DNA from: Bacillota bacterium
Lineage (GTDB): Bacteria > Bacillota_A > Clostridia > Lachnospirales > Lachnospiraceae
Assembly (NCBI GenBank): GCA_023443925.1
Contig: JAEZSL010000323.1
Coordinates: 1-17,593 of the forward strand
DNA: 17,593 bases
Direction: 5' to 3'
A program made the position numbers and the translations under genes. Positions 1-17,593 of the stretch are shown here, piece after piece. Under the pieces are notes generated by a model, which did no database searches, was not told where the DNA came from, and worked only from the letters and a program-made list of their open reading frames with translations. Each line of letters opens with the position of its first letter. The stretch's first letter is position 1.

Positions 1-1007
1 ATGACCGCCAGCCATGGTTTATCCGGAAATGCATATAATACGGACAGGATAACAATAGGGTTGACGGCAGCCGAAGTCAGCCAGAAAGTCATGGTCTGGG
101 GCAGCGGAGTACCCTTCTTTAACAAACCGGATACGATAGGTACCAACCCGCAGTCGCAAACCGGCATAAAGAATCCGGCAATGGCAGCAAAAAAGAAGGA
201 CCCAAACTTTCGGCCAGAAAATTTATTTATAATCCAGCCGGTCGGGATGAATAACTGAATCCCGGAGGATATAAAAGCGCCTAAAAGAATAAAAGGCAGC
301 GCCTGCATTAGTATGCTTAAAAAAATAGTCGAAACCGAACGGATATTATCATATATTTGCTCCAGAGTACGAAAGGGAATCAGACATAGAAGCAACAGGG
401 TTAAAGCCATAATGATCATTCCAGAAGTGATTTTATGGTATTTTTCAAAAGGTACGAAATATTTCTCCAACTGATTTTGGTCACCCTCAAAAATTGTTTC
501 CGTCTTAGGATTAATGGCCCTAACCTGGCTTTTCAGCTGCTTTTTATTCTCCTCGGCAAGGTGCCCGGCGCGGTTAAAGACGATCAAATCACTATTTATA
601 ATCTGTGGCTGTAGAATAGACGACATATTTCTTAAATACGGATTAAACCTGCCTGCTTCACTGATATGGATCAGATTTCTGAACATACAAAATTTCGGCA
701 GCCTTAATGCCAAAAGTCTGCCGATATCCCAGGTTCCGTTATATTCGATAATTATATAATCCGGTGCGTATTCTGTAATAAGTGTATCCATCCATTCATC
801 GGTTAACTCCTCGCTTTCACTAAGGATCACCGGGCTTATGTTACAGGTTTTAAGGTCTTCTGCGGAATACGTGCCGATTCCTTCCTCACACACCACTAAA
901 ACCGTTTTTCCATATTCCAGAAAAGTTTTTCTTTCTATAAGTTTATTGATAAAAGTAGTCTTACCGCTTTCTATAAAGCCGGTTATGACATCAATAAAAA
1001 CCGCCAT
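1..1007 (-). CDS. CobW-like GTPase domain fused to a YraQ/DUF318-type permease (partial, 3' end cut by window)
   Basis: The frame is open for 335 codons from ATG at 1007 (GGAGGG four bases upstream) to the window edge, so the C-terminus is missing. Residues 1-190 look like a divergent COG0523/CobW P-loop domain: GFIESGKTT (10-18), a Walker-B-like stretch DYIIIEYNG (83-91), and VFNRAG (143-148) where NKxD is expected. The CxCC metal-binding motif of COG0523 is absent. From about residue 197 the chain becomes hydrophobic, and MPVCDCGLVPIV (281-292), followed by TSAAVNPIVILS, matches the hallmark of YraQ/DUF318 permeases. It follows the cobW gene by 22 bp and is the last visible gene of the zinc operon. 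I infer a membrane transport role tied to zinc limitation, with the GTPase domain gating or loading it; the substrate is unknown. The fusion is read directly; the function is inference. Confidence 0.85.
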   Translation of the reverse strand, partial: MAVFIDVITGFIESGKTTFINKLIERKTFLEYGKTVLVVCEEGIGTYSAEDLKTCNISPVILSESEELTDEWMDTLITEYAPDYIIIEYNGTWDIGRLLALRLPKFCMFRNLIHISEAGRFNPYLRNMSSILQPQIINSDLIVFNRAGHLAEENKKQLKSQVRAINPKTETIFEGDQNQLEKYFVPFEKYHKITSGMIIMALTLLLLCLIPFRTLEQIYDNIRSVSTIFLSILMQALPFILLGAFISSGIQLFIPTGWIINKFSGRKFGSFFFAAIAGFFMPVCDCGLVPIVSGLLKKGTPLPQTMTFWLTSAAVNPIVILSVLYAFPDKPWLAV

Positions 1008-1029
1008 ATATCCCTCCGTCTCATACTGT

Positions 1030-2073
1030 TTATACCTCGAAGAGCTTCGTTAGTTCAGCCTTATTCAGCTTTTCTCCGATTACGCAGATTCTGCCGGTAT
1101 AATCCGGCACCGATTCCTTTATTGTTATTTCTCCGGGCACATAATCAAATTGGAACCATTTGCCGTTATTCCCCATCAGGATTCCTTTCCCCCGGAGGAT
1201 AAAACCTTGTGCCTCTGAAAACCGGTTTAGTATTTCTCTTAATTTAACTGCAGAGTATATTTGAACGGTTTCCATTCCCCATACGTCAAAAACATCATCC
1301 GCATGATGGTGCTGGGGTTTCGTTATTTTCCCAAGAGAAGAATCCTTCTTTCGAAAAGGCAGGGAGACCTTAATCCGGGAGCCGGAGTCAGATACAGGTG
1401 CCGTTACCGTCAGATTGGCTGGCGGTGTACTCCCATTCCTGACGTAACCTAAGAGTTCCTGCTTTAAGCTTAAGGCTTCCGAATTCTGTGCCAGTTCCGT
1501 TATTCGCTGCCCGTCCATTAAATCCCAGTCCGTGGTAACTAGTGTAGCGGTTTCGTTATAGTTCCTGATATCCTTTACTATGTATTCAATGTCGGCAGTT
1601 TTCATAAACTGGGTCCGGCTAAGTAAAATGGTTCCCGCATTCTTCAGCTGGTCTTTATAAAATTCCGAAAAATTTTTCAGATACATTTTATATTTCATGC
1701 CGTCAATTACGGTAATACACATATTAAACCGTACCGTATCCTCTTTGATAAACGGACGGCAGCCCAGTATCACATCGGAGAGTTTACCTACTCCGGAGGG
1801 TTCAATTATTATGCGGTCCGGCTGGTACAGTTTCAGCATTTCTTTTAAAGCCAGACTGAAATCACCGGATATGGTACAGCATATGCAGCCGGAATTCATT
1901 TCTCTGATTTCAATACCGTAATCTTTTAGTAAAACCCCATCAATTCCAATTTCACCGAACTCATTTTCTATTAATACTACTTTTTCACCCGGAAAACCGT
2001 CTTTTAAAAGTTTTTTTATCAGTGTAGTTTTACCGGCTCCAAGAAAGCCGGAGATTATATCTATTTTCGTCAT
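1030..2073 (-). CDS. CobW/COG0523-family zinc-associated GTPase (metallochaperone)
   Basis: This 347-residue G3E GTPase has Walker A GFLGAGKTT (9-17), ENEFGEIGID (37-46), the metal-binding GCICC (62-66), a Walker-B-like IIIEPSG (88-94), and a CobW C-terminal domain (about 255-347) preceded by a His cluster HHHADD (255-260). Known family members, such as YciC/ZagA of Bacillus, hand zinc to client proteins when zinc is scarce. The start codon overlaps the znuB stop by one base (TGATG), which implies translational coupling and places it in the Zur-controlled znu operon. Oddity: where a NKxD guanine-specificity motif should follow the fourth strand, the sequence reads SRTQ (152-155), so base specificity may be relaxed. 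Family assignment is firm; the zinc role rests on context and the GCICC motif. Confidence 0.92.
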   Translation of the reverse strand: MTKIDIISGFLGAGKTTLIKKLLKDGFPGEKVVLIENEFGEIGIDGVLLKDYGIEIREMNSGCICCTISGDFSLALKEMLKLYQPDRIIIEPSGVGKLSDVILGCRPFIKEDTVRFNMCITVIDGMKYKMYLKNFSEFYKDQLKNAGTILLSRTQFMKTADIEYIVKDIRNYNETATLVTTDWDLMDGQRITELAQNSEALSLKQELLGYVRNGSTPPANLTVTAPVSDSGSRIKVSLPFRKKDSSLGKITKPQHHHADDVFDVWGMETVQIYSAVKLREILNRFSEAQGFILRGKGILMGNNGKWFQFDYVPGEITIKESVPDYTGRICVIGEKLNKAELTKLFEV

Positions 2074-2882
2074 CAGGAAATTCCTCTTTTAAACTTATTG
2101 CCTTTCACAAGGAAAGTAATTAACAGAAAAATAACCCCGGTTAAAACAATGGTACCGCCGGGTTTTAAGCCGTTGTAATAAGACAGGGTCAGGCCGGTTA
2201 CCGTAAACACGACGGCAAATAAAATGGATAAAACCAGGGTCTGCTTATAACTTTTCCCAAACTGCATTCCGCAGGTCACAGGAATAACCATAAGTGAGGA
2301 GATAATAAGAGCCCCTACTGTCCTGGAAGCGACCGATACGGTCAAAGCCGTCAATACGGTAAATACAATATTGATTGCACGGACCGGAACACCGGATAAG
2401 CTGGCTGCCGATTCATCAAAGGCCATATACATAAGTTCCTTATACAGCAGGAAAAAAACAAGAATAACCAGCAGGCTGACTCCCACTACCAGCCACAGTT
2501 CAAAATCGGTAATCGCTACGATACTGCCGAATAGAAAACTGTTAAAGTTGGCTGAGTTACTGACGAATCCTGAAAGTACACCTGCTAACCCCACTCCTGC
2601 CGACATAACTATGGCAATGGATATTTCCGAATATTTAGGAAACCTTTTTCTGATAAATTCAATCCCGAAAGCGGCAAGGATACAGGCAACGGAAGCACTT
2701 AAGACCGGATTGGCCCCAAGGATCAAGCCCAGTGCCACACCGGCCAGGGAAGTATGGCTTAAAGCATCCCCTGTCATAGACAGCCTTCTTAGTACTACAA
2801 CCATTCCGATGCAGGGGACAATAACTGCCAGCAGGATTCCTACTAAAAAAGCTTTTTGCATAAATTCATATTGCAAAATCAT
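2073..2882 (-). CDS. znuB: Zinc ABC transporter, membrane permease (ZnuB)
   Basis: Hydrophobic ABC-3 family permease of 269 residues with about eight membrane segments. It forms the inner-membrane channel for zinc brought by ZnuA and powered by ZnuC. Family signatures include the N-terminal CIGMVVVLRRLSMTGDALSH, the loop that contacts the ATPase, and the SRTVGALIISSLMVIP region. The frame also has a GTG at 2891, but AAAGGAG is only two bases before it and eleven before the ATG at 2882, so I favour 2882. Either start leaves the gene overlapping the end of znuC, and its stop overlaps the start of cobW. This is typical of a coupled operon. Confidence 0.93.
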   Translation of the reverse strand: MILQYEFMQKAFLVGILLAVIVPCIGMVVVLRRLSMTGDALSHTSLAGVALGLILGANPVLSASVACILAAFGIEFIRKRFPKYSEISIAIVMSAGVGLAGVLSGFVSNSANFNSFLFGSIVAITDFELWLVVGVSLLVILVFFLLYKELMYMAFDESAASLSGVPVRAINIVFTVLTALTVSVASRTVGALIISSLMVIPVTCGMQFGKSYKQTLVLSILFAVVFTVTGLTLSYYNGLKPGGTIVLTGVIFLLITFLVKGNKFKRGIS

Positions 2883-3561
2883 GTTCTTCACCGCTCCTTT
2901 CCGCTGTCTGGCCTGAATTGTCCGAAAGCAGTATCAGCTTTTTATCGCTTATTTCGTATATTTTATTCATATCTTTTTTTACTTCTAAAATATTGTGGGT
3001 AACCATAATAACCGTAAGACCGTTTTCCCGGTTCAGCCGGTACAACAGTTGGTAGAGATTCTCTTCGCTTTTAGCATCAATTCCGGATACCGGTTCATCC
3101 AAAATCAGGATTTCCGGATTGTTGACCAGGGATTTGGCGATCAGTACTCTTTGCTGCTGTCCCCCGGATAGTTTTCCAATCAGTCTGTTTTTGTAATCCA
3201 ACATACCCACGATGTCAAGGGCCTTTTCAGCCATTTCATAGTGCTCTTTTTTGGGTCTTTTTAGTAATCCTATGCTGCCATACAGGTTCAGCATGACAAC
3301 TTCCATAACTGTGGCAGGAAAGTCACTTTTTACCGACAAGCCAACCTGGGGAACGTATCCTACGTTCCTTTCGGTTCTGGATACCATACCGGTTCTGGTC
3401 TGCAGTAACCCCAGCATTAATTTAATCAGGGTGCTCTTGCCGGTTCCGTTGGCACCGATTATTCCTACATAATCCCCTTTTTTTATCTCAAGATTAATAT
3501 CATCAAGGATTAAACCATCTTCATATCCAAATTTGAGATTCTTAATTTCAATGCTGTTCAT
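2866..3561 (-). CDS. znuC: Zinc ABC transporter, ATP-binding protein (ZnuC)
   Basis: This 231-residue cytoplasmic ATPase energises zinc import. All ABC motifs are intact: Walker A GANGTGKST (36-44), Q-loop Q72, signature LSGGQQQR (131-138), Walker B ILILDEP (151-157) and the switch histidine in VTHN (189). The start has a strong AGGAGG six bases upstream. It begins 28 bp after znuA and overlaps the start of znuB. The C-terminal tail is short and polar, without the regulatory extension of maltose-type ATPases. Manganese or iron ABC systems share this fold; zinc is favoured by the His-rich binding protein, the cobW gene and the Zur-like box upstream. Confidence 0.94.
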   Translation of the reverse strand: MNSIEIKNLKFGYEDGLILDDINLEIKKGDYVGIIGANGTGKSTLIKLMLGLLQTRTGMVSRTERNVGYVPQVGLSVKSDFPATVMEVVMLNLYGSIGLLKRPKKEHYEMAEKALDIVGMLDYKNRLIGKLSGGQQQRVLIAKSLVNNPEILILDEPVSGIDAKSEENLYQLLYRLNRENGLTVIMVTHNILEVKKDMNKIYEISDKKLILLSDNSGQTAERSGEEHDFAI

Positions 3562-3589
3562 GGCCTGCCTCCTGCCTTATATCTCCGGT

Positions 3590-4672
3590 TTATTTTAATG
3601 CGCTTACCAGTGCATTCAGATTCTTCTCCATAATGGACAGATAATCTTCTCCTGCATTAAGCTGTTCCTGTGTTAAACCTTCCAAAGGATTTAACACAGC
3701 TGTCTGTGCTCCGATCTCAGCCGCTATTGTTTCTGCTACCTTGGGACTTACTAATTCTTCAAAGAATATGGTCTTAATCTCCTTATCCCTGGCAAAATCA
3801 ATAATCTCAGCCATCCTTTTTGCGTCAGGTTCCGAGTCGGCGGCCAAACCTTCTATGGCTACCTGATTCAAATCATAATCCGCACATAAATACGCAAAGG
3901 CCTGGTGTGCAACAATCAGATCCTTATTGGTTAAACCGGATAATTCTTGGCTGAATTTCTGATCCAGAGCATCAAATTCAGCCGCATATTTCACAAAATT
4001 GGCTTCAAAATAATCCTTATTGTCCGGATCCGCTTTCACAAAGGCATCTTTAATGTTTTCCATTTCCTTTTTACCGTTTCTAATGCTGAGCCATACATGG
4101 GGATCAAAACCTTCGTGGTCTTCAATCCCACTCTCTGCCTCGTTTTCATCAGTATGCTTATCTTCAGCTTGCTTGTCTTCACCAGCTTGCTCATCTTCAT
4201 CAGCATGCTCATCTTCACCAGCATGCTCATCTTCATGCTCCACGCCGTCCAGCAGTGTGATACCATTTGAAGCTTCCAGCAAAATCAGATTTTCATTTTC
4301 CAAAGAAGCACTTACCTGATCCACCCAGTGTTCCATACCGGCTCCATTATAAATAAGCATATCCGCTTTTTCAAGGCTTAATATATCCGTAGTGGCAGGC
4401 TCCCAATCATGAGGTTCCGTTCCTGCCGGAACCAGGTTAATTACCTTTACTTTATCACCCCCGATTTTTACTGCGAAGTCGTAAAGAGGATAAAAACTGG
4501 TATATACTTCCAATCTGTCGTTTTCTTTTTTATCTGCGCTTTCCACCGAAATTTTTTCCACATCGGTTAATGCTTCCGTACTTTTGATAGAGGCATCCTC
4601 TTTTCTGGAACCGCAGGCGGCTGTTAATAGGCCGGTTATAATAATTATTGCAGTTATTAAATATTTTTTCAT
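3590..4672 (-). CDS. znuA: Zinc-binding lipoprotein of the ABC importer (ZnuA/AdcA-like)
   Basis: Cluster A-I (TroA/ZnuA) substrate-binding protein of 360 residues. A lipoprotein signal ends in LTAAC with lipidated Cys20. Predicted metal-ligand histidines sit in EPHDW (H88), DPHVW (H192) and AHQAF (H256), with acidic FFEEL (303-307) downstream. Between the first two ligands lies the acidic, His-rich loop typical of zinc-specific members (about 145-187), built of six-residue repeats of the form DEHAGE encoded by 18-bp DNA repeats. It is the first gene of the operon. Its start is at 4672 with only a weak GGTGA before it, about 60 bases below the predicted transcription start. It should capture extracellular zinc at the membrane surface. 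Confidence 0.95.
   Translation of the reverse strand: MKKYLITAIIIITGLLTAACGSRKEDASIKSTEALTDVEKISVESADKKENDRLEVYTSFYPLYDFAVKIGGDKVKVINLVPAGTEPHDWEPATTDILSLEKADMLIYNGAGMEHWVDQVSASLENENLILLEASNGITLLDGVEHEDEHAGEDEHADEDEQAGEDKQAEDKHTDENEAESGIEDHEGFDPHVWLSIRNGKKEMENIKDAFVKADPDNKDYFEANFVKYAAEFDALDQKFSQELSGLTNKDLIVAHQAFAYLCADYDLNQVAIEGLAADSEPDAKRMAEIIDFARDKEIKTIFFEELVSPKVAETIAAEIGAQTAVLNPLEGLTQEQLNAGEDYLSIMEKNLNALVSALK
4145..4240 (-). repeat. 18-bp tandem repeats encoding the ZnuA His/Asp/Glu loop
   Basis: Several imperfect 18-bp units encode DEHAGE, DEHADE, DEQAGE and a degenerate DKQAED. On the plus strand they appear as CTCATCTTCACCAGCATG and variants. Open reading frames on both strands over this segment are by-products of the repeat. 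Unit number could vary between strains by slippage without breaking the frame. Confidence 0.85.
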
Positions 4673-4718
4673 TAAATCACCATTTCTTTCTCATTTTATT
4701 ACTTTTTTCATTAAACGC

Positions 4719-4739
4719 AAATGCAAATCATTCGCATTT
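4719..4739. promoter_or_regulatory. Zur-box-like operator
   Basis: A 21-bp inverted repeat with arms AAATGCAAAT and ATTCGCATTT around a central C (4729), with one mismatched pair. The core TGCAAAT-C-ATTCGCA has the 7-1-7 form of Fur/Zur/PerR boxes and resembles the Bacillus Zur consensus TCGTAATnATTACGA. It directly abuts the -10 and covers the predicted start, so bound Zur-Zn would block znu transcription. Confidence 0.8.
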
Positions 4740-4768
4740 AATATACTACGAATGTGAACATCTGTCAA
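4740..4768 (-). promoter_or_regulatory. Sigma-A promoter of the znu operon
   Basis: On the minus strand, -35 TTGACA (4768-4763) and -10 TATATT (4745-4740) are separated by exactly 17 bases. The predicted start lies near 4733, inside the palindrome at 4719-4739, which is a repression geometry. Confidence 0.85.
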
Positions 4769-4847
4769 GGAGTAATTTTATCACTTAATCCTTTTAATTT
4801 CATATGAAAATGAGTTATTACTTAATGTAAGGGGGGATTTCTTTTTC

Positions 4848-4876
4848 TTGACAATTTTCCAAGTCTATTCTATGAT
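4848..4876 (+). promoter_or_regulatory. Sigma-A promoter of the Fur-family regulator gene
   Basis: TTGACA (4848-4853), a 17-bp spacer and TATGAT (4871-4876) predict a start near 4883, giving a leader of about 180 nt before the TTG start codon. No Zur-box-like palindrome overlaps this promoter. Confidence 0.75.
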
Positions 4877-4890
4877 TTGTAGAGAGTGAA

Positions 4891-4945
4891 CAATGAAAAC
4901 TAGTTTTCATTGAATACAAGTTTTCATTAAATACAAGTTTTCATA
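4891..4945 (+). repeat. 22-bp perfect palindrome plus three 17-bp direct repeats in the regulator's leader
   Basis: Positions 4891-4912 are a perfect palindrome with arms CAATGAAAACT and AGTTTTCATTG. The right arm AGTTTTCAT recurs at 4902, 4919 and 4936, a strict 17-base period. In RNA the left arm could pair with any of the three right arms; in DNA this could be a multi-site operator. Confidence 0.8.
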
Positions 4946-5014
4946 AGTTCTCTTTTCTTTAAGGGATGATTATTCTGTCACTTGACAATATATTGTTTCA
5001 ATAAAGGAGATTAA

Positions 5015-5040
5015 ACGTATCTGCTTATTGGAAGATACGT
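5015..5040 (+). other. Leader hairpin just upstream of the regulator's ribosome binding site
   Basis: ACGTATCT (5015-5022) and AGATACGT (5033-5040) form a perfect 8-bp stem with a 10-base loop, ending about nine bases before AAAGGAG. It could influence translation from the TTG start; this is inference. Confidence 0.5.
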
Positions 5041-5062
5041 AATTTAAAAGGAGTGAATTACC

Positions 5063-5473
5063 TTGGCTAATAATACATTAAAGTCTGCCGACTTAAAACA
5101 AACGAAGAAGCGTATTCTTATTCTATCTGTGCTGGAAGCTGCCTCAACTCCCCTGACCGTGGAAGAAATTGCAGAGCTGACTGCCAAGGACATGAAGATG
5201 AGCATTTCTACCATATACCGCGCTCTAAACGCTTTGGCAGAAAAGGATGTAATCAGTAAGGCACTTCATCAGGACGGCAAGACTTATTATGAAATTAATA
5301 ACCATACCCACAGACATTCCCTTCTGTGTACTTTATGTAATGAAAGAATACCGATTGATGCTTGTCCCTTAGAAAGTCTTGAAAATTATCTGGCTAAAGA
5401 AACCGGCTATACCATTACCGGACATAATCTGGAGTTTTTCGGGATATGCCCAAACTGCGCCGAAAAAAAATAG
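5063..5473 (+). CDS. zur: Fur-family metalloregulator, probably Zur
   Basis: A 136-residue Fur-family repressor. The N-terminal winged helix includes the recognition segment SISTIYRALNAL (47-58). The dimerisation/metal domain carries HTHRH (81-85) and two structural-zinc pairs, C89-x2-C92 and C129-x2-C132. It starts with TTG at 5063, seven bases after AAAGGAGTG; no better ATG exists upstream in frame. It lies divergently from the znu operon, whose promoter contains a 7-1-7 palindrome, so zinc is the likely effector and Zur the likely identity. PerR or Fur cannot be excluded by motif alone. As a Zn-loaded dimer it would repress znuA and the genes behind it, including the GTPase-permease fusion. 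Confidence 0.85.
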   Translation: MANNTLKSADLKQTKKRILILSVLEAASTPLTVEEIAELTAKDMKMSISTIYRALNALAEKDVISKALHQDGKTYYEINNHTHRHSLLCTLCNERIPIDACPLESLENYLAKETGYTITGHNLEFFGICPNCAEKK

Positions 5474-5497
5474 ACAATACCAAACCAAACGGCAAAA

Positions 5498-5557
5498 GCT
5501 GTTCCAAATCAGTGATCTGTTCTATCTATAATACTGATTCTGTAACAGCTTTTTTTA
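5498..5557 (+). terminator. Rho-independent terminator after the Fur-family gene
   Basis: AGCTGTT (5498-5504) pairs with AACAGCT (5544-5550), and ATCAGT (5508-5513) pairs with ACTGAT (5533-5538). The hairpin is followed by a run of seven T. Confidence 0.85.
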
Positions 5558-5600
5558 TTTTTGCTATTCTTATAATGACTCGCATGCATTGATTTCAAAC

Positions 5601-5688
5601 TAGCTCCCATTGCATAAATCATCTTCTGGCAGATGATTTACTGGCTCTGATCAGGGTTTGAAATGTCCTTTATTTCAAACTAAACCCT
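5601..5688 (-). repeat. Structured direct repeat, copy A (3' flank of the S8 peptidase gene)
   Basis: About 88 bp with roughly 80% identity to the copy at 7388-7475, in the same orientation. Read on the minus strand it has stem 1 GTTTGAAAT/ATTTCAAAC (loop aaaggac), stem 2 AAATCATCT/AGATGATTT, then GGGAGCTA. The last codons and stop of the peptidase gene lie inside stem 1. After GGGAGCTA no gene follows; a 22-codon frame there runs into the opposite-strand terminator and is not credible. Confidence 0.8.
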
Positions 5689-7381
5689 CATCCCGAAAAA
5701 GCATAAAGGTTCTGTTTATATCCAATATACCAAACCCCCAATCCTGGTTGGGATAAGGTGTATTGCTGAATCTCCTGGCTCCGCTGATTAACATTCTTCT
5801 TATGATTACGTTAGATATAACCGGCAGATTGCCCCTGACAATTCCCCACTCCAATAACATGGCGGCTACTCCTGCTGCATGGGCTGCTGCTATACTGGTT
5901 CCGGTTGCCCGGGTAAAAGCATTTTCCGACACAGGTGCTTTAATATTAACGCCCGGTGCCGCCACATCCGGCTTGAATTCATTGTCCTTTGTAAAGCCTC
6001 TGCTGGCATTATAATAAAGACTTTCATTAATGGGATTATAAGCCGTAACAGTTAACGTATTTACGGTATTGCCCGGAGCTGAAATTGTTGTCTGGGAATC
6101 GGAATTAAAGAAATAGGTGTTGCCCGTTATAAAACCATCCATGGGAAGCCACAGATGGTATCTGGCCGCCAGATCCGTCGTCCCGCTGACAACAAACCTC
6201 CAGATTCCGCTTTTGGGATTTTGAAACCGCATCAAAATAAGCTGATCGCCGGTAGACGCTTCACTATTCTGACTATCAACCAATATAGTGGTATTCTCAT
6301 ACACTACTTCTATGGTTTCCTGAGGTCCCAGGCTTTCCGGTATGCGTACTACAAAAGAAAATTCCGGTGAATAAATATCTACCTCCACTATGTTCGGAGC
6401 ATATCCCCATAATTCCACTGAAAATCCGGTTTCATTTTCCCCTACATACAATGAGATAACTTCCTGCTCTTTAGAGGGGTTTATTTCACCGAAAAAATGA
6501 TGGCCCCGGTTTCCTTCATTGCCGGCTGCTATAACAACCGAACGTCCTACCATATTACTGATATCCTGCAGATACCCGCATAACAGGCATCTGCCTTCAT
6601 GATCCCCCTGATTGGTACCGACACCGAGACATATCACAAGGGGACGGTTTAAACGGGCAGCCAGCTGATTTAAATAACTGACACCCATTAGAATATCATT
6701 TGACTGAAAACTTACCGAATTCTGCGGCACGCGGAAAAATTCTTTCAGATAAGGTTTTGCTTGTTTTAATTTAACTACAACCAACTCCGACTTAGGTGCA
6801 ACTCCCGCAAACCCGTTCTCTTCCATTACCGTCCCCGCTGCCACACCGGCCAGCATCGTTCCGTGACCGTTTTCATCATTGGTTGGTACAACGGATAACG
6901 GATTCCTGTTTTGCAGGGCACTGTTAATCTGTTCCTGATTAAATTCCGTTCCATAATAAAAATTTTCAGGATAAGCCCCAGTATCTAAAGTCTGATCCCA
7001 TATTGATACAATTCGAGTTGACTGATCGGCATTACGGAATGCCTGACTGATATAATCAATTCCGGTATCGATAAATCCAATCAGTACCCCTTCCCCTTCC
7101 AAATCAAAACCCGGCTCGCCTCGTAACTGGGTTATACCGGAGGATTCCAGGCTGACATAGGATAATAATCCGTAGATTTTGGGAATGGCATCATAGCCGA
7201 AGATCCGGACACTGTTAAAATCCATATATTCTGACGGTAAATATGCAACCGCATAATTATCTTCCAATGCCAGAACGGAATATTCCGGATTGCCTGCTAT
7301 CTCATTAATTCTGTTATTACCCTCGATTATAAAATCTGCATAATCGCTGCTAGTTATTTTATATCTTTCCTCAGGACTCAT
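5675..7381 (-). CDS. Subtilisin-like serine peptidase (S8), Csp-like
   Basis: This 568-residue S8 subtilase has all catalytic residues (numbered from the ATG at 7381): Asp105 in GFIDTGIDY, His173 in NGHGTMLAG, oxyanion Asn288 in AAGNEG, and Ser496 in ATGTSIAAAHAAG. A large insertion domain (about 300-440) separates Asn from Ser, as in clostridial CspB/CspC-type proteins of spore germination, and the N-terminus MSPEERYKITSSDYADFIIE suits that group. There is no signal peptide, so it is probably cytoplasmic or packaged in the spore. An upstream ATG at 7402 lies in the flanking repeat with no good ribosome site, whereas GGGAG stands nine bases before 7381; I chose 7381. The gene is bracketed by direct repeats, suggesting it was once part of a tandem array. 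Family is certain; the germination role is inference. Confidence 0.88.
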   Translation of the reverse strand: MSPEERYKITSSDYADFIIEGNNRINEIAGNPEYSVLALEDNYAVAYLPSEYMDFNSVRIFGYDAIPKIYGLLSYVSLESSGITQLRGEPGFDLEGEGVLIGFIDTGIDYISQAFRNADQSTRIVSIWDQTLDTGAYPENFYYGTEFNQEQINSALQNRNPLSVVPTNDENGHGTMLAGVAAGTVMEENGFAGVAPKSELVVVKLKQAKPYLKEFFRVPQNSVSFQSNDILMGVSYLNQLAARLNRPLVICLGVGTNQGDHEGRCLLCGYLQDISNMVGRSVVIAAGNEGNRGHHFFGEINPSKEQEVISLYVGENETGFSVELWGYAPNIVEVDIYSPEFSFVVRIPESLGPQETIEVVYENTTILVDSQNSEASTGDQLILMRFQNPKSGIWRFVVSGTTDLAARYHLWLPMDGFITGNTYFFNSDSQTTISAPGNTVNTLTVTAYNPINESLYYNASRGFTKDNEFKPDVAAPGVNIKAPVSENAFTRATGTSIAAAHAAGVAAMLLEWGIVRGNLPVISNVIIRRMLISGARRFSNTPYPNQDWGFGILDINRTFMLFRDEGLV

Positions 7382-7387
7382 TCTATC

Positions 7388-7475
7388 TAGCTCCCATGGC
7401 ATAAAGCATCTGCCCGCAGATGTTTTACTGCCTCAAATCAGGGTGTGAAATGTATTTTATTTCACACTATCACCC
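7388..7475 (-). repeat. Structured direct repeat, copy B (5' flank of the S8 peptidase gene)
   Basis: Partner of the copy at 5601-5688. On the minus strand stem 1 is GTGTGAAAT/ATTTCACAC, which differs from copy A by a paired change (G-C for T-A), and stem 2 is CATCTGC/GCAGATG. The element ends in GGGAGCTA, whose GGGAG serves as the peptidase gene's likely ribosome binding site, so the structure could regulate translation or terminate upstream transcription. Confidence 0.8.
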
Positions 7476-7521
7476 GTGCCTCTTCTTACTTAATTAATAT
7501 GTATTTCGCTGATAGATTATT

Positions 7522-7547
7522 AATAGTAAGTTATGAATCTTACTATT
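7522..7547 (-). other. Intergenic hairpin after the 86-residue gene
   Basis: AATAGTAAG (7522-7530) and CTTACTATT (7539-7547) form a perfect 9-bp AT-rich stem with an 8-base loop. On the minus strand it is followed by AATAATC instead of a T run, so it is at best a weak terminator. Confidence 0.4.
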
Positions 7548-7589
7548 GTCTGAAGCTCAGTCCGCAGGCAGTCCTATCTATTAGTACTA

Positions 7590-7850
7590 TTACTTAGCTG
7601 GTTTTTCTCCTTCAATACTCTTTAAGATAGCTACCTGTTCCGGGATATCATCCCGCTCAATAAGAATTTCTGTCCAGGAACCAAACAGCTTTTTATTTGC
7701 GTGGCGCAGACTGTCATACAAATTCTCCTCATTAACATGACTGTCCGGATTTACGCATATAAGTAATTTATTTACTTTGCTGAAATGGTTCGTTTTACTT
7801 AGGATTTGGACTTCTTCCGTAATTTTATTTAAAAGTGGTGTATTGTTCAT
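7590..7850 (-). CDS. Small protein, possibly related to the nickel-binding domain of HypA
   Basis: An 86-residue soluble protein with a clean GGAGG seven bases before ATG 7850. The order (helix about 1-20, strand KLLICVNPD, helix EENLYDSLRHANKKLF, strand TEILIERDDIP) resembles the first domain of hydrogenase nickel chaperone HypA, and the gene sits two genes after a hydrogenase-type maturation protease. However, it lacks the N-terminal MHE nickel motif and the CxxC zinc finger, and the chain ends where that finger would begin. I therefore treat HypA kinship as a hypothesis from topology and context only. It is 104 bp downstream of the cytochrome b5-like gene, with a repeat element in the gap. 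Confidence 0.6.
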   Translation of the reverse strand: MNNTPLLNKITEEVQILSKTNHFSKVNKLLICVNPDSHVNEENLYDSLRHANKKLFGSWTEILIERDDIPEQVAILKSIEGEKPAK

Positions 7851-7881
7851 AATGTTACCTCCATTTATTTATGTTAAATGC

Positions 7882-7957
7882 TTCGAGTTTCAAAAGGTCC
7901 CACAGCATACATTTTATTATACACTCGTATTCATTCAGAACACAAAATCACCCCTTA
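7882..7957 (-). repeat. 3'-UTR repeat element, copy C
   Basis: About 75 bp, clearly homologous to 10848-10920. On the plus strand both contain TTCGAGT near the left end and GTATTCATTCAGAACA plus AAAAT near the right end. On the minus strand it starts at the stop codon of the cytochrome b5-like gene. CGAGT and ACTCG near its ends can pair. Confidence 0.75.
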
Positions 7958-8569
7958 ACCGGGTACCAGGACCCCGATTAGCGGAAGCTGCTGAAGCATG
8001 GAGGAAACTCCCCCATGACAGGATTTAAATTCATCGGTTAGATCATTACCAGCCTGTAACCCGTAGTGTGCACCACCTGACCAGCCGGGCAGCCCGCTGA
8101 CATCATATACCACACCGTTAACGGCTACATAAGCCGGATTACCGCCTTCTCCATTAAATACTTTAAGTTCCTCCGGTGTAAATACAGTTGGCCTTTGAGC
8201 CGTTGGGGGACTGTTCACAATTGGCGGCTGAGTTATATCCATTAATGGAACCTCACTGGTGCTGCCAGGAACGGGATTGGTACCTGACGTAGGCTGCCGC
8301 CCCGGTTCGGTAAAGGGGGGCGGGGCTATACCCGGCGGCCGTTGCGGGACATACCTCCGTTCACTTTCCGGAACAGGCAGCTGAGCAGTATATATCTTTT
8401 CCACGTAACATTCCATTACATGGATTAATTCTTCCGTACGTTCTTTAATCAGAGCCTGATTGCATTGCTTCTCATAAGGTGTAACTCCCAAGGCTTCCAT
8501 TTGGCTGTAATAGCTGATCTCTTTCTGATACTGGTTTATAATATCCCTGATTCCGTATTCATCCCTCAT
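7955..8569 (-). CDS. Cytochrome b5-like heme/steroid-binding domain protein
   Basis: A 204-residue protein in three parts: a polar helical N-terminus (1-62, with C36 and C54), a Pro-rich linker (about 65-127), and a C-terminal cytochrome b5-like domain (about 128-204). The last contains YVAVNGVVYDVSGLPGW, HYGLQAGNDLTDEFKSCHG and a hydrophobic end LPLIGVLVPG. This is the short clostridial form of the fold; His168 and His185 are candidate heme contacts. No signal peptide or membrane helix is visible, so it is likely cytoplasmic. Its ATG overlaps the end of the maturation protease gene by 11 bp, implying co-translation and possibly a shared redox pathway. The GC-rich patch near 8280-8350 is explained by Pro/Gly codons of the linker. 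Domain call is confident; heme binding and role are inferred. Confidence 0.82.
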   Translation of the reverse strand: MRDEYGIRDIINQYQKEISYYSQMEALGVTPYEKQCNQALIKERTEELIHVMECYVEKIYTAQLPVPESERRYVPQRPPGIAPPPFTEPGRQPTSGTNPVPGSTSEVPLMDITQPPIVNSPPTAQRPTVFTPEELKVFNGEGGNPAYVAVNGVVYDVSGLPGWSGGAHYGLQAGNDLTDEFKSCHGGVSSMLQQLPLIGVLVPG

Positions 8570-9026
8570 TTAATACCTTCCCTTCCTCCTGTATCAAATC
8601 CAGGTATCTTAACACTTCTTTGATGATCTCCTTTTTCTTTTTTTGCAGTTCTGAGGTTAATCCAAACCCGAAAGTTATTTCCTTAATTTCGATTCCCAAT
8701 ATATCCCCTTTCAGCTCCGGATAATACAGTTTTAATATATCCAGCAGATTATAGCTATGCTGGGTATGGCCGTCACGGTCAGGGAAATGGTCATCTAAAG
8801 GAATAATTGTGATATCACCAGGGGATTTTCCGTAGTTGGCCGCATCCAGTATTATGACCCTGTCCGAATTATTTACTTTTGATATACAGTCTCCGAAATC
8901 CGTCTCACCGTAAATAACCTCCACACCTTTTTCCTTTAGTTCTTCTTCTATAGCCCTTGCTGTAAAAATACCGATACCGTCATCCTTCATCAGTACGTTC
9001 CCCATTGCTATTAATTTCAGACTCAT
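8559..9026 (-). CDS. Hydrogenase-type maturation endopeptidase (M52, HycI/HyaD-like)
   Basis: A 155-residue M52-family protein. Proteases of this family clip the C-terminal tail from a [NiFe]-hydrogenase large subunit after nickel insertion. The family motif GNVLMKDDGIG (9-19) carries an acidic residue at the nickel-recognition site, ILDAANYG holds Asp61, and HTQHSYNLLDIL holds His90; these correspond to the three nickel contacts of HybD. GAGGT lies six bases before the ATG at 9026. It is the first gene of a run with the cytochrome b5-like and small HypA-like genes. Oddity: no hydrogenase large or small subunit is in this window, so its substrate is either encoded elsewhere or is not a hydrogenase. 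Confidence 0.85.
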   Translation of the reverse strand: MSLKLIAMGNVLMKDDGIGIFTARAIEEELKEKGVEVIYGETDFGDCISKVNNSDRVIILDAANYGKSPGDITIIPLDDHFPDRDGHTQHSYNLLDILKLYYPELKGDILGIEIKEITFGFGLTSELQKKKKEIIKEVLRYLDLIQEEGKVLNEG

Positions 9027-9272
9027 GCCAATACCTCAATTATACATTTGCCGGCGGGCCACCTTAAGGCCCATTATTCAATTCCGGAGGTTGTTCCTTT
9101 TTTAATTTATATTATGACAGGCTATAGAATATAACTCATGGGGAAATGCTTTTTCATTTCACGTATCAAAAAGCTGACGCGCTGTCACGACAGTGACATC
9201 TTCCAAATGATTTATCCTTTTGTGCGTTATGTGCATCCTGCCTGGAAGGCTTTTTAATTTATAGGTAAGTTT
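9027..9272 (-). promoter_or_regulatory. Upstream region of the maturation-protease operon, with palindromes
   Basis: No gene here. It holds TGTCAC-N4-GTGACA (9183-9198), a 6-4-6 palindrome of the size used by Crp/Fnr-type regulators, and a small hairpin GAAATG/CATTTC (9143-9160). I found no convincing sigma-A promoter; a TATAAT near 9040 would leave almost no leader. Confidence 0.35.
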
Positions 9273-9310
9273 AAAAAAGCCGCTGTAACTCATTTAAGTT
9301 ACAGCAGCTT
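9273..9310 (-). terminator. Rho-independent terminator after thioredoxin
   Basis: On the minus strand AGCTGCTGTAACT pairs with AGTTACAGCGGCT (one mismatch) around a short loop, followed by TTTTTTAAA. It lies 50 bases after the trx stop and separates it from the downstream operon. Confidence 0.85.
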
Positions 9311-9360
9311 CAATCATGTATCTGCAGATTCCTGTGAAATTGTAGTACCTTAAGTACTTA

Positions 9361-9672
9361 TTAACTGATTAAGGACATTATAGCTTTCTTTGGTTTAACC
9401 CCAACGGAGGTGCCGGCAACCTTACCGTCCTTTATTACTAACAGCGTCGGTATACTCATAATGCTGAAAGCTTCCGCCAATTCACCTTCTTCATCGATAT
9501 TTATCTTTCCTACTTTTACAGCCTCTTTCGTTTCTTCCGCAACCTCATCAATTATCGGAGCTACCATTTTACAAGGGCCGCACCAGGATGCCCAAAAATC
9601 CAATAAAACCGGTTTATCTGAATGTAATACTTCCTTTTCAAAATTATGTTTGGTTATCTTTAACACGCTCAT
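9361..9672 (-). CDS. trxA: Thioredoxin
   Basis: A 103-residue classical thioredoxin with active site WASWCGPCK (Cys31, Cys34), the cis-Pro loop SIMSIPTLLV, and the usual length. It reduces protein disulfides in the cytoplasm using electrons from thioredoxin reductase, which is not in this window. Two ATGs compete: 9678 is only about two bases after AAAGGAG, while 9672 is eight bases after it and gives the usual MSVLKITK start; I chose 9672. It is monocistronic, with its own terminator. An inverted repeat TGTGA-N5-TCACA lies about 65 bp upstream. Confidence 0.96.
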   Translation of the reverse strand: MSVLKITKHNFEKEVLHSDKPVLLDFWASWCGPCKMVAPIIDEVAEETKEAVKVGKINIDEEGELAEAFSIMSIPTLLVIKDGKVAGTSVGVKPKKAIMSLIS

Positions 9673-9736
9673 ATTCATTACTCCTTTACTAAAACATTTA
9701 TTATAATTTCATTATACTCAGAAATAAATAATTCTC

Positions 9737-9751
9737 TGTGATGGAGTCACA
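9737..9751. promoter_or_regulatory. Inverted repeat TGTGA-N5-TCACA in the trx / small-protein divergent region
   Basis: A perfect 5-5-5 inverted repeat between divergently transcribed genes. It resembles Crp/Fnr-family half-sites, but the spacer is one base short of the classic N6. Candidate operator only. Confidence 0.3.
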
Positions 9752-9825
9752 AAATAAACAGTTCTTAGTTTACAGCATTCTAGAAATTATTTAAAAAAAA
9801 TTAAAATATTCTGTTTCATTTTGTC

Positions 9826-9855
9826 ACAATAATAATTTTAATGTCATAGTATAAT
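9826..9855 (+). promoter_or_regulatory. Promoter of the paralogous small-protein pair, possibly sigma-K type
   Basis: AC (9826-9827), 17 bases, then CATAGTATA (9845-9853) fits the Bacillus sigma-K pattern AC-N16/17-CATAnnnTA. The overlapping TATAAT (9850-9855) could be a sigma-A -10, but no TTGACA-like -35 sits 16-18 bases upstream. The match is short and the DNA AT-rich, so chance is possible. Confidence 0.45.
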
Positions 9856-9920
9856 GTAGAGTTACCAATAACCTTACCAAAGGATTTAAGGAAACTCCAG
9901 AAAAAAAAGGAGGGTTGTTT

Positions 9921-10253
9921 ATGTCAAGTGGATTCGGTGGAAATCAATTTTTCAACTGTCATATCGAGAAATTTATTGGAGAGACAGTTACTGTTTTTAC
10001 TACCAGCGGAGGTTTATCCGGCAGTGGATTTACCGGAGTTGTATTAGCCGTAAACTGCGGTGTTGTCAGATTGGTAGTTCGTCAGGGTTCTGCTCCTGCA
10101 AACCCGCTTGGTGAAAACTTTAATCACGGCAGAGATGACTGGCGCCATGATAAATGTGATGACAGACGCCATGATAGATGCTGTCACAAAGCAGGTGCTG
10201 TTGTAGATATCCCCATCGACAGGATTGCATGTTTTGTTCATAACGCTATTTAA
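9921..10253 (+). CDS. Small beta-rich protein with His/Cys/Asp/Arg insert (paralogue 1)
   Basis: A 110-residue protein of no recognised family. The ATG at 9921 has GGAGG seven bases before it; an in-frame TTG at 9915 is inside that spacing and unlikely. Residues 13-55 (CHIEKFIGETVTVF, then a Gly/Ser-rich turn, FTGVVLAVNCGVVRLVV) and 92-110 (AVVDIPIDRIACFVHNAI) look like strands of one small barrel, SH3- or Sm-like. Between them lies an insert (about 62-90) rich in His, Cys, Asp and Arg, partly built from a 24-bp DNA repeat. It is 30 bp upstream of a paralogue with the same core and a different insert. The insert could bind metal; the pattern recalls small spore-coat or surface proteins. Both statements are inference. 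Confidence 0.8.
   Translation: MSSGFGGNQFFNCHIEKFIGETVTVFTTSGGLSGSGFTGVVLAVNCGVVRLVVRQGSAPANPLGENFNHGRDDWRHDKCDDRRHDRCCHKAGAVVDIPIDRIACFVHNAI
10134..10180 (+). repeat. 24-bp direct repeat inside paralogue 1
   Basis: Two units share GATGAC, three variable bases, CGCCATGATA, one variable base and ATG, at a period of 24 bp. They encode RHDKCDD and RHDRCC-type segments of the variable insert, showing how the insert can grow or shrink in frame. Confidence 0.8.
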
Positions 10254-10283
10254 TAATTTTTTAATTATAAGGAGGTTTTGATT

Positions 10284-10622
10284 ATGTCATTTAATAATGG
10301 TTTATCTAATGAAAGTTTTGTATGCCACATCCGTCGTTTTATCGGCGAAACCGTTACAGTTTTTACCGCCAGCGGCGGCATTTCCGGATCAGGGTTTACC
10401 GGTGTTATTTTAGCAGTTAACTGCGATTTCGTTAGATTAGTAACGGACCAGGGTTCCGCTCCTACTTCTCCGATTGAGCCAATCTATGATGAATGCGACT
10501 GCAATGGAAATTACAACAATAATGGAAACTATGAACGCGAACGCCGTCATTGCTATAATGTAGGTTCCGTTACTGATATTCCTATTGATAAAATAGTAGC
10601 CTTCGTTCATAATGCAGTATAA
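10284..10622 (+). CDS. Small beta-rich protein with Asn/Cys-rich insert (paralogue 2)
   Basis: A 112-residue paralogue of the preceding gene, with GGAGG eight bases before ATG 10284 (an in-frame TTG at 10278 is disfavoured by spacing). The core is nearly the same: CHIRRFIGETVTVFTASGG, GSGFTGVILAVNC, VRLVTDQGSAP, and the end DIPIDKIVAFVHNAV. The insert (about 61-92) instead reads as acidic, Cys and Asn-rich (DECDCNGNYNNN) followed by ERERRHC. The two genes form one operon and are followed by a large terminator-like fold. Conservation of the core with a free-running insert suggests a scaffold presenting different surfaces. Function is unknown. Confidence 0.8.
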   Translation: MSFNNGLSNESFVCHIRRFIGETVTVFTASGGISGSGFTGVILAVNCDFVRLVTDQGSAPTSPIEPIYDECDCNGNYNNNGNYERERRHCYNVGSVTDIPIDKIVAFVHNAV

Positions 10623-10689
10623 TTATTTCAGAAAGAATTAATATAAAGAATAATTAAATTCTAGCTGCTAAATAAGATCTCCTAAACCG

Positions 10690-10804
10690 CAAAGAGATTG
10701 TCTTATGGCAAATACGTTCTTCTTCCTAAACTGAGAAATCAGTTTTCACCGCCACCTGAAAAATTGGAAGTTGTACGTCATCTGTGTAAGGCAATCTCTT
10801 TTTG
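10690..10804 (+). terminator. Large branched terminator-like RNA fold
   Basis: AAAGAGATTGTCTTA (10691-10705) pairs with TAAGGCAATCTCTTT (10787-10801) over 15 bp with one G-U, ending in five T. The 81-base interior also folds: CTTCC (10722-10726) with GGAAG (10766-10770), the two ACGT (10714, 10774), and AAACTGA/TCAGTTT around a GAAA tetraloop (10728-10745). It ends the small-protein operon and may be more than a simple terminator. Confidence 0.65.
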
Positions 10805-10847
10805 TTTATAAAATGCATTTTATTTTCATTAATTGATTCTAAATGAT

Positions 10848-10920
10848 TTCGAGTGTTAAATGGCCCTCAACATGTACTATACATACACTGTATTCATTCA
10901 GAACATAAAATTAACCTTTT
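10848..10920 (-). repeat. 3'-UTR repeat element, copy D
   Basis: Homologue of 7882-7957. On the minus strand it begins about 13 bases after the chemoreceptor stop codon. CAGTGT and ACACTC near its ends can pair and ATGTA/TACAT makes an inner hairpin. Its placement after a stop codon, as in copy C, suggests a mobile or functional 3'-UTR module. Confidence 0.75.
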
Positions 10921-10932
10921 GACACTGTAATC

Positions 10933-12717
10933 CTAAATTGTAAATCCGCCTATTTCCTTCTGCAGCCTTAAAGAACTGTCACGGGTAATCATGATCTGAT
11001 CCGTCACTTCACCGGACATGGCGGTTATATCTGCGATCTTCCCGGCTATTTCGCCGGTTCCTTCCGCTCCTTCCGAGGCTGCCCTGGTAACTTCGTTAAC
11101 GGCATAAATAACCTGTCCTATGGAAGCTAATAATTCTTCTGAAGTTGCACTAAAGTCCGTTATCAGGCTGTCCACATAAGCAGCATCTGCATTATATGCA
11201 TCCGTAACCCCCAGGAATTGTTCAAAATTTCCGTTAATATCTTTAGATACAAAATCCAGGAGAGCATTGGAATTATCGGTAAGATTATCAACAGCTTCGG
11301 TTACCTTCCCGGTTACCTTTTGTATCTGCACCACCATATTCTTAGACTGTTCCGCCAGATTGCGAATCTCCTCTGCAACAACAGAAAAACCTTTGCCGGC
11401 TTCTCCGGCTCTGGCTGCTTCGATTGCAGCATTTAATGCCAGCAGATTAGTCTGAGCGGTTATTCCCATAATCGCTTCGGAAAGTACATTGATTTCATTC
11501 ACTACCTTAGACTGCTCCAGGGCTTGTTGGAGTTTTTCCTGGATTTCCACCCGTACTCTCTGAAGTAACTCCTGGGATTTTTGAATGTCTGTTCTGGTAT
11601 TTTCTGCCCGCTTACTGATTGCAATTACCTGATTCGCACCTTCCTGGGCTTTTTCAGCAATACTTCTGGCTGCGGATTCAATTTCTGCGGAGGAGGAATT
11701 CATCTCCTGGGCGGATGCCGCCGTTTCCTCCATACCTGCCGCCAGTTCTTCCGTTGTAGCGGAAACATCTGTAATATTGCCGTTTAATTCCTTAATGTTT
11801 AAATTAACACGATCAACAACCTGTATTATCTGATGGGCCTCCGCCTTGGTACTTCCGATGAGGCCTGCCACGGAATGTTTCATTGCTTCCAGATCCTGTA
11901 CCAATTCACCGAAATCATCCTTACGTATTATATAGCTTTTTGGTATATCTGCTTTAAAATTACCGGAAGCCAGAACATTTAAGTATTTTCTGATGGTTTT
12001 AAATGCATTATTGATATTGATGGACATATAAGCACAAAAAAGAACGGATAATAACATAGCGGCCAGAAACAGGGCTACGAATTTAGTGATATTGGCCCGG
12101 ATAACTTCTTCCTCTTGTGCTGCCATGTCATTTACCACAGTATCAATAAAATCTATGTAATTACCTGTTCCAATAACCCAGCCGAAAGGTTCAAAGGCAG
12201 CGCTGTAACTTCTTTTGGGAAGAGCTTCTGACTCTCCTGCTTTCGGAAACCAGTATTCCGTAAAGCCTCCTTCCTTTTTTCTTCCGTTTTCGATTATATT
12301 TTTCATATATGGGTAATCATTTACATCAAGCTTATCTATACGGTTGGTGCCTTCTGTCTCATTTCCCAGCAAGACAACACACTCACCTTCATAAGTATCC
12401 GCCCAAAAATATCCGCCGCTGCCATAAGTTAGTCCTCTTAACAAATCCGCACCGGTTTTTTTCGCTTCCTCCAGTGTATACTCTCCGGCTTCGTATTTTG
12501 CATAAATACCCTTTAATAAGGAAATTGCATTTTCTACCTGGTTCTTAATATTGTTATCGTAATCCTGTCGGATACTAACCTCCAAAGTTTTTAAATTAAC
12601 CTTTAATGTCCTGGTCTGGTCTAAAATAGACAATACTCCCATTAATACTGTTGTAAACAGAAGAAATGCCGATAATAATAATATTTTTGTTTTCACCTTT
12701 AAATTATTTAATTTCAT
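10933..12717 (-). CDS. Methyl-accepting chemotaxis protein with periplasmic-type Cache domain
   Basis: A 594-residue chemoreceptor. In order: a membrane helix (about 10-28), an extracellular single Cache domain (about 35-205) with [11 protein letters not shown] and the end [12 protein letters not shown], a second membrane helix (about 208-230), HAMP, and a cytoplasmic signalling domain (about 300-594). The hairpin tip, which contacts CheA and CheW, is recognisable as [20 protein letters not shown] followed by [18 protein letters not shown]. Cache_2 domains of this type usually sense small carboxylates; the ligand here cannot be told. The ATG at 12717 follows GGGAGG. It is monocistronic, with its own promoter and a 5' leader hairpin, and no che genes are nearby, as is usual for scattered receptors. 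There is no C-terminal CheR-binding pentapeptide. Confidence 0.94.
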
Positions 12718-12743
12718 AAAGAAATCCTCCCTTTTCGTAATTG

Positions 12744-12789
12744 TAGCAACATAAATGAAAAATCCGAAAATTAAGAATTTCTGTTGCTA
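12744..12789 (-). other. 5' leader hairpin of the chemoreceptor gene
   Basis: TAGCAACA and TGTTGCTA form a perfect 8-bp stem enclosing an AT-rich loop, between the predicted transcription start and the GGGAGG site. I looked for a c-di-GMP riboswitch, common before clostridial chemoreceptor genes, and saw none of its conserved cores. Confidence 0.5.
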
Positions 12790-12799
12790 TTATATACTT

Positions 12800-12828
12800 A
12801 TTCTACATTATTCTACATAATAGTACAA
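12800..12828 (-). promoter_or_regulatory. Probable sigma-A promoter of the chemoreceptor gene
   Basis: Minus strand -35 TTGTAC (12828-12823), 17 bases, -10 TAGAAT (12805-12800). The -10 lies in a tandem ATTCTACAT repeat. No sigma-D (flagellar) GCCGATAA-like -10 was seen. The remaining DNA to 13000 is AT-rich, with small inverted repeats and no gene. Confidence 0.55.
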
Positions 12829-12999
12829 TATACTTCGTGTATTTTAAATCCGATTTTATGCATATCTCTTAATTCAGTAGAGATTAATTACAATTTTTTG
12901 AATTATTTATTTTAAAAATTCAATCTTCTTAGTACTTTTTTACTAAATAACTTTCTTTTTTTATCATTTTAATCAATTGAACATCATTTCAAATCACAA

Positions 13000-13050
13000 T
13001 AAAAAACAGCCGGTGAAAAGGCAGATTATAAATCACCTTTCACCGGCTGT
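13000..13050 (-). terminator. Rho-independent terminator of the ABC transporter/regulator operon
   Basis: ACAGCCGGTGAAA pairs perfectly with TTTCACCGGCTGT (13006-13018 and 13038-13050), extended by AGG/CCT-like pairing. On the minus strand the stem is followed by TTTTTTATTG. It lies 107 bases after the response regulator stop. The 13051-13157 stretch holds no gene. Confidence 0.92.
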
Positions 13051-13157
13051 TTCAGACAGGCATATGATTGTATATTATCGTTTATTATGTATATTTATTC
13101 ATTCATACTTCCATGCTTTAAATCATAAAATGTGATGCTCCAAGGATTTTCGTCAAG

Positions 13158-13919: not shown

Positions 13920-13964
13920 ATTTTACACCGTTGCCTGCCGCAGTCAGCCTTCGGATACTGCCAC

Positions 13965-13994
13965 TATATAAAAAGTGAAAGCATCTATATGCAA
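13965..13994 (-). promoter_or_regulatory. Possible internal promoter for the response regulator gene
   Basis: Minus strand TTGCAT (13994-13989), 18 bases, TATATA (13970-13965), about 45 bases before the start codon. The -35 is a poor match, so this is tentative. Confidence 0.3.
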
Positions 13995-14033
13995 AATCTA
14001 TTTGCGGCATCCTTTCTCATCCTATTTTCTTAC

Positions 14034-14085
14034 ACTCTTCCCGATATGACGCCGATTCCGGTATCATAAGCAATGCCGGAAGAGT
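14034..14085. repeat. Inverted repeat between second permease and response regulator genes
   Basis: ACTCTTCC (14034-14041) and GGAAGAGT (14078-14085) form a perfect 8-bp stem around 36 bases. No T run follows on either strand, so it is not an evident terminator; processing or partial attenuation is possible. Confidence 0.45.
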
Positions 14086-14162
14086 TGGAGTGGATATGAC
14101 TGAATATGCAGTGAAAATTAGTTTAGTCCTCTTTATTTCAAAATCAGCTTCCTTTAATGATT

Positions 14163-15014: not shown

Positions 15015-15027
15015 TTGCTGCACCTCC

Positions 15028-15909: not shown

Positions 15910-16001
15910 GGATACCCTGCCTTTCTAAAACTGTAGAATATATAAGTGTGTGCATGGCGGTCTCAAACGCCGGTCACAGTCGGAGAAGCCTATGATAGAA
16001 T

Positions 16002-16037
16002 AAGGCAGAGGGGCGGATATTAAGTCCCCTCTGCCTT
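16002..16037 (-). other. Intercistronic stem-loop after the binding-protein gene
   Basis: AAGGCAGAGGGG (16002-16013) and CCCCTCTGCCTT (16026-16037) form a perfect 12-bp GC-rich stem with a 12-base loop. On the minus strand ATTCTATC follows rather than a T run. It is more likely an mRNA stabiliser or partial attenuator that raises binding-protein output over permeases than a full terminator. Confidence 0.7.
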
Positions 16038-16061
16038 CCTTTTCATCAATGCAAACCGCTA

Positions 16062-17563: not shown

Positions 17564-17593
17564 CTATATTTAACATTCATTTACAAAACAACG

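Follow-up and report, generated by a model that had tools for sequence, protein, structure and literature searches.

A CxCC-less G3E GTPase domain fused to an ArsP_1 permease in a clostridial zinc-uptake operon

A gene at the edge of a 17,593-nucleotide stretch of Lachnospiraceae DNA (assembly GCA_023443925.1, contig JAEZSL010000323.1, positions 1 to 17,593; hereafter, the window) encodes a G3E-type GTPase domain joined in one frame to an ArsP_1 permease, and several described systems resemble it in part. GTPases of the COG0523/CobW group (YjiA, YciC/ZagA, ZigA) have the G3E fold and the Walker motifs in common with the fusion, which differs from them in lacking the CxCC metal motif and the CobW_C domain, in the E[Y/F/H]NG tail of its Walker B-type motif, and in falling into a separate clade. 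Permeases of the YcgR/SMU_747c type (ArsP_1, DUF318, COG0701), which are paired with DUF1980 proteins (TIGR03943), are recognized by the Pfam model PF03773, as is the fusion, likewise well above the cut-off; unlike the fusion, they have no nucleotide-binding domain. FeoB works along similar lines, with a G domain at the cytoplasmic N-terminus of a metal permease, whereas its G-protein class and its permease family are different. The fusion also resembles the CobW-DUF1980_C proteins, named in some sources as GTP-binding protein or TIGR03943 family putative permease subunit. Their G3E domains belong to the same clade, carry nearly the same motif set (CEEG, EYNG, FNR), and are found in the same place behind a CxCC CobW, but are joined to DUF1980_C rather than to a permease.

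The passages of PMC9164220 that deal with such proteins describe FeoB as a permease for metal that holds a G protein within the same molecule, IcmF as carrying a fused MeaB G3E domain, and the dimer arrangement of G3E proteins; the fused client of IcmF is a soluble mutase and not a transporter. Zur-linked COG0523 subfamilies are dealt with in Haas 2009, where the COG0523 proteins are treated as putative chaperones of diverse metals; the terms COG0701, COG3689, fusion, fused and permease do not occur in its main text (PMC2770081). In the open-licence literature of PubMed Central, a G3E GTPase–permease fusion was not found described, COG0523 was not found linked to DUF1980 together with a permease or to COG0701, and DUF1980 was not found linked to DUF318; nor, judged by title, did papers that combine two of COG3689, COG0701 and zinc deal with the subject. 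The fusion is a domain architecture of known families that was not found described in that literature. A preliminary description of the window, made from the letters alone, had regarded a metallochaperone-type NTPase wired to a transport channel as a new way of coupling metal status to transport; the covalent fusion within a zinc-uptake operon is borne out, while FeoB and IcmF provide partial precedents for the principle (PMC9164220).

The fusion gene (3–1007, minus strand) begins with an ATG at 1007, 22 bases past the stop codon of the preceding cobW gene and behind a GGAGG-type ribosome-binding site, and is cut by the window edge, where its frame is still open after 335 visible codons. The single frame was found to join two Pfam domains, both above their curated cut-offs, as had been proposed from reading the sequence. 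The cobW/G3E nucleotide-binding domain (PF02492) occupies residues 7–172 (492–989, minus strand; E 5.5e-11, 42.8 bits against a cut-off of 20.7), which removes the doubt whether the first 190 residues resemble a P-loop NTPase at all. The visible part of the ArsP_1/DUF318 permease domain (PF03773) occupies residues 222–327 (27–344, minus strand; E 5e-27, 95.3 bits against a cut-off of 32.3). The Walker A motif GFIESGKTT (residues 10–18; 954–980), the Walker B-type motif DYIIIEYNG (residues 83–91; 735–761), the VFNRAG found where NKxD is expected (residues 143–148; 564–581), and the permease hallmark MPVCDCGLVPIV (residues 281–292; 132–167), all on the minus strand, lie where the preliminary description had placed them. 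The missing C-terminus is supplied by P0001, a protein of 517 residues that is 97% identical to the window protein over the entire query, with ArsP_1 at 222–509 (174.5 bits). The CobW_C domain (PF07683) was not matched by Pfam in the window fusion or in the full-length P0001 and P0085. Ahead of the permease, the fusion has about 190 residues of G3E domain, to which YjiA is the closest solved sequence, and an extra predicted helix at 195–209. On the predicted topology and fold, the protein is a CxCC-less G3E GTPase domain at the cytoplasmic N-terminus of a YcgR/SO_0444-like ArsP_1 permease.

The architecture is widely conserved. A protein search with the window fusion gave 137 matches at E ≤ 1e-3, the best 120 of which were listed, and conservation was counted over the 92 proteins among P0001–P0095 with at least 500 residues (517–557), the shorter P0048, P0071 and P0079 being excluded. 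The Walker A pattern is present in all 92; also invariant are E41, G43, E88-x-N90-G91 and N127 in the G3E half, and C284, C286, C448, D479 and N482 in the permease half. The pattern C.CC is absent from the first 120 residues of every fusion (0/92) and present in 25/25 comparison CobWs. No His-rich stretch was found in the 92 fusions, the longest His run being one residue in 90 and two in the remaining 2. At the NKxD site, Asn145 is retained in 87/92, and residue 148 is acidic (Glu or Asp) in 58/92; the window protein, with Gly148, does have VFNRAG, as noted earlier, but this is no private loss of the motif. Where named, the sources are Anaerocolumna, Lachnospiraceae, Anaeromicropila, Velocimicrobium, Acetobacterium, Anaerotignum, Thermincola and Anaeromonas, with one partial fusion from a Bacteroidaceae bin; the fusion P0007 is 62% identical to that of the window. 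With copies in so many clostridia, the fusion is a real and widely conserved architecture. Two distinct fusions, P0022 and P0062, come from contigs of equal size (6655168), probably one genome with two paralogues.

Where these proteins carry a database name, it usually denotes a permease or YraQ-type membrane protein, and the GTPase half therefore often goes unnoticed, although some of the names do include a GTPase domain. The fusion was not found in Spirochaetota among the matches listed, down to a cut at the weak end, for 296 genomes (185 of which match one half or the other), a pattern search of viral contigs found neither the fusion nor CobW-DUF1980_C, and no plasmid or phage record covered 80% of the fusion. 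A single-protein query of genome contigs returned one unfused relative.

Of the unfused G3E domains that the search returned, the nearest were those of the CobW-DUF1980_C proteins (a family of 1918 matches), and CxCC was found in none of the 121 examined. A tree of 72 G3E domains, thinned to 32 of 93 fusions (including the window's), 25 of 121 CobW-DUF1980_C proteins and 15 of 25 CxCC CobWs, placed the fusions and the CobW-DUF1980_C domains in one clade with support of 100/99, a value that was unchanged when two long and eight far outgroup rows were removed. By this analysis, the fused domain belongs to a clade that it shares with the CobW-DUF1980_C proteins. The absence of CxCC, also reported in the preliminary description, is confirmed, but it is not a simple loss from CobW; decay of a CobW was ruled out by the uniformity of the motifs across the family and by the separate clade. 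The full tree suggested that the DUF1980_C kind is nested within the fusions, and an approximately unbiased (AU) test gave p = 0.008 against a single fusion clade. In the reduced tree, the value rose to p = 0.134; the signal for descent of CobW-DUF1980_C from within the fusions is not robust, and only the shared clade is claimed for this reason.

Neighbourhoods of CobW-DUF1980_C genes were inspected in all five plasmid or phage records in which a single match took in at least 80% of the query: two plasmids reached with P0148 (Subdoligranulum variabile and Vescimonas fastidiosa) and three human faecal contigs among the phages, reached with P0208. In 5/5 records, the gene lies directly behind a CxCC CobW, with intergenic gaps of 12 (L060), 30 (L058) and 39 (L056) bases. 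These paired CobWs are of the same subtype as that of the window: those of four records are 51–56% identical to it over 204–213 aligned N-terminal positions and the fifth is 40% identical over its full length, whereas nine compared spirochaete CobWs reach at most 39%. Two further members of the window-CobW subtype (L065, L067) run off the contig edge, and three more distant CobWs (L063, L064, L066) have no atypical G3E gene nearby, only 316 bases being present downstream in L066. Since the order is the same in the five records and in the window, a CxCC CobW followed by an atypical G3E protein is a recurrent unit, in which the other half of the second protein can be a permease or DUF1980_C. The three phage records (L056–L058; MT835785, MT838432, MT835561) are filed as Bacteriophage sp., carry the pair amid bacterial-looking genes, and may be mislabelled. 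No transmembrane segment was predicted in P0098, the one CobW-DUF1980_C protein checked, even though DUF1980_C is otherwise the C-terminal domain of a membrane subunit; three were predicted in each of four transmembrane-type DUF1980 proteins (P0248, P0252, P0259, P0230). The pattern of Lys and Arg residues would put the C-terminal domain outside in P0248 and P0252 and is ambiguous in the other two. DUF1980_C may thus act at either face of the membrane.

A predicted model of the permease of a relative, P0096 (predicted local distance difference test score, pLDDT, 89.2; predicted template modelling score, pTM, 0.86) matched elevator-type folds; Foldseek alone gave no significant match. The permease half is predicted to have an elevator-type fold of the IT superfamily, in common with DASS, CNT, TRAP, ArsB or AbgT transporters. 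The carriers with the closest folds are mostly secondary, driven by gradients. In spirochaetes, close unfused permeases (308–341 residues, one cut to 217) are followed directly by a DUF1980 gene in 13/14 distinct loci; the exception, L008, has a DUF1980 match elsewhere in its genome, and none accompanies L002 and L018, permeases that are less closely related. The same permease and DUF1980 pair is carried by a Priestia plasmid. In the permease tree, six spirochaete genes (L004–L009) adjoin the Anaerotignum-type fusions (100/99), no G3E remnant was found upstream of the spirochaete unfused permeases, and four changes between fused and unfused are needed, three of them forced by starred branches, of which one is P0096, a fragment at a contig end. 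By this tree, the G3E domain was gained or lost more than once. The transmembrane-type DUF1980 protein P0259 and the fusion P0007 come from the same source, and their longest contigs both measure 318098 bases, an equality very unlikely to be due to chance, which does not imply that the genes are adjacent. A second such coincidence (9426, for P0059 and P0148) is short enough for chance.

In the window, the fusion is the last gene of a minus-strand run with the order znuA, znuC, znuB, cobW, fusion, all the upstream genes being directly consecutive, which agrees with its earlier placement directly behind a full CobW and the znu genes. The run comprises a znuA-type zinc-binding lipoprotein with a His/acidic loop (3590–4672; PF01297, E 8e-88), a znuC-type ABC ATPase (2866–3561; PF00005, E 9e-28; AztA ranks first among the NCBIfam models, its cut-off not being reached), a znuB-type ABC permease (2073–2891; PF00950, E 4.4e-60), and a CobW-family GTPase (1030–2073; PF02492 and CobW_C) with CxCC at residues 63–66. 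Divergent from znuA is the gene for a Fur-family regulator (5063–5473, plus strand; PF01475, E 1.9e-22), which reaches no NCBIfam cut-off and is a Zur by context only. The viral contig L062 breaks off 66 codons into a cobW gene (4694–4891) whose product is 77% identical to the CobW of the window; the other frames are phage-like by reading alone, no search having been made, as if a prophage adjoined cobW in a relative. Farther along the window (7955–9026), the gene for a cytochrome b5-like domain protein overlaps that for a HycI-type hydrogenase maturation protease.

From its position and gene content, control of the operon by Zur is plausible. A promoter-like site of the sigma-70 type (TTGACA-17-TATATT, 11/12; 4740–4768, minus strand) leads into znuA, and directly after its −10 hexamer starts a 21-base inverted repeat (10-1-10, 9/10 pairs; 4719–4739), a candidate Zur operator. 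The significance of the repeat was judged by shuffling and resampling, since its pattern was derived from the site itself. Alone it is not significant: 6.7% of shuffles scored as well, 11.4% of resampled regions matched the B. subtilis Zur consensus as well as it did, and across the whole window such a match is ordinary, being equalled in 87% of 60 resampled windows. Promoter-like sites of this kind are not enriched (13 in the region, 11.9 expected from shuffles). Within 4891–4944 lies a perfect 22-base palindrome, CAATGAAAACTAGTTTTCATTG, together with two partial copies at 17-base spacing, just past a promoter-like site (TTGACA 4848 to TATGAT 4876) directed at the Fur-family gene; the array has the look of an operator at which another regulator would bind.

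The reading preferred here, to which we give a probability of roughly 0.38, is that the fusion is a permease docked and gated through its G3E domain by the upstream CobW, forming a second zinc route beside ZnuABC. The permease would act with a membrane DUF1980 subunit, as its unfused relatives suggest. The G3E domain would be a docking and gating module that pairs with the CxCC CobW in a G3E-type dimer, the CobW carrying Zn(II) and delivering or collecting it where the permease opens to the cytoplasm; the binding or hydrolysis of nucleotide would open metal transfer between the two. The elevator is probably driven by an ion gradient, because the closest folds are mostly those of secondary carriers, and the route, for zinc or a zinc complex, might run in either direction. 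A pair of this design is likelier than a fused chaperone because the CxCC protein persists as a gene directly upstream. It is more doubtful that a nucleotide-gated heterodimer of the permease-borne G3E domain and the zinc-loaded CobW passes metal directly, with the DUF1980_C-borne docking domain serving a soluble client in other clostridia. Among 212 frames of at least 80 residues at six loci, no permease was found near any of the five DUF1980_C pairs (that of the control L061 being detected), nor was any Zur-like box found ahead of them; both results tell against explaining the shared domain by transport or zinc alone. A Bacillus ArsP_1 permease of unassigned specificity, similar to SMU_747c, is bound by Zur upstream, and the authors inferred positive regulation from the positions of the boxes (PMC6336718), which, so read, would suit efflux.

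Efflux is the main rival, and a rather unlikely one: the permease would export zinc, a metal intruding during zinc starvation, or a metallophore, and so balance high-affinity uptake. The best NCBIfam models on P0001 are both of efflux transporters, SO_0444 for Cu/Zn (NF033936, 75.4 bits) and SaoE (NF040736, 53.5 bits), and the three invariant permease cysteines would fit such a role; however, the scores are far below the equivalog cut-offs of 300 and 325, the gene lies in one run with znuACB, and the G3E domain would be left with no evident role. Appreciably less probable is that the fused domain serves only as a regulatory or assembly platform, a nucleotide sensor or scaffold that handles no metal. 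The uniform lack of CxCC and of His-rich stretches is what such a platform would predict, as is the same kind of domain on DUF1980_C in proteins with no predicted transmembrane segment (P0098), but genes with this kind of domain follow CxCC CobWs of a single subtype in 5/5 loci and in the window, which suggests a link to a metal-binding partner. Equally improbable is a metal pump powered by GTP, similar in concept to FeoB, whose elevator would be driven directly by hydrolysis in the G3E domain with no part for CobW. The covalent link, the Walker A and Walker B-type residues intact in all the fusions counted, and the precedent set by FeoB (PMC9164220) speak for a motor. Against it, neither Pfam nor NCBIfam gave a match to a FeoB-type model for the window fusion or P0001, the closest folds are mostly gradient-driven carriers, and the carrier does not need a G3E domain, because the closest unfused permeases, those of spirochaetes, paired with DUF1980 in 13/14 loci, have none. 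Finally, a frameshift or misassembly of separate cobW and permease genes, which the preliminary description had allowed for and in favour of which no point was found, is refuted by the whole-length P0001, on a contig of 5437 bases, and by 92 fused clusters from several sources.

The targets to which most Zur-linked COG0523 GTPases deliver metal are an open question. If the fused domain docks the neighbouring CobW, as the preferred reading of a CobW-coupled permease has it, a concrete client, a membrane transporter, would be named, and the question could be tested with two purified proteins. FeoB would then, if this holds true, be joined by another kind of fusion between a G domain and a metal permease, built on an unrelated carrier.
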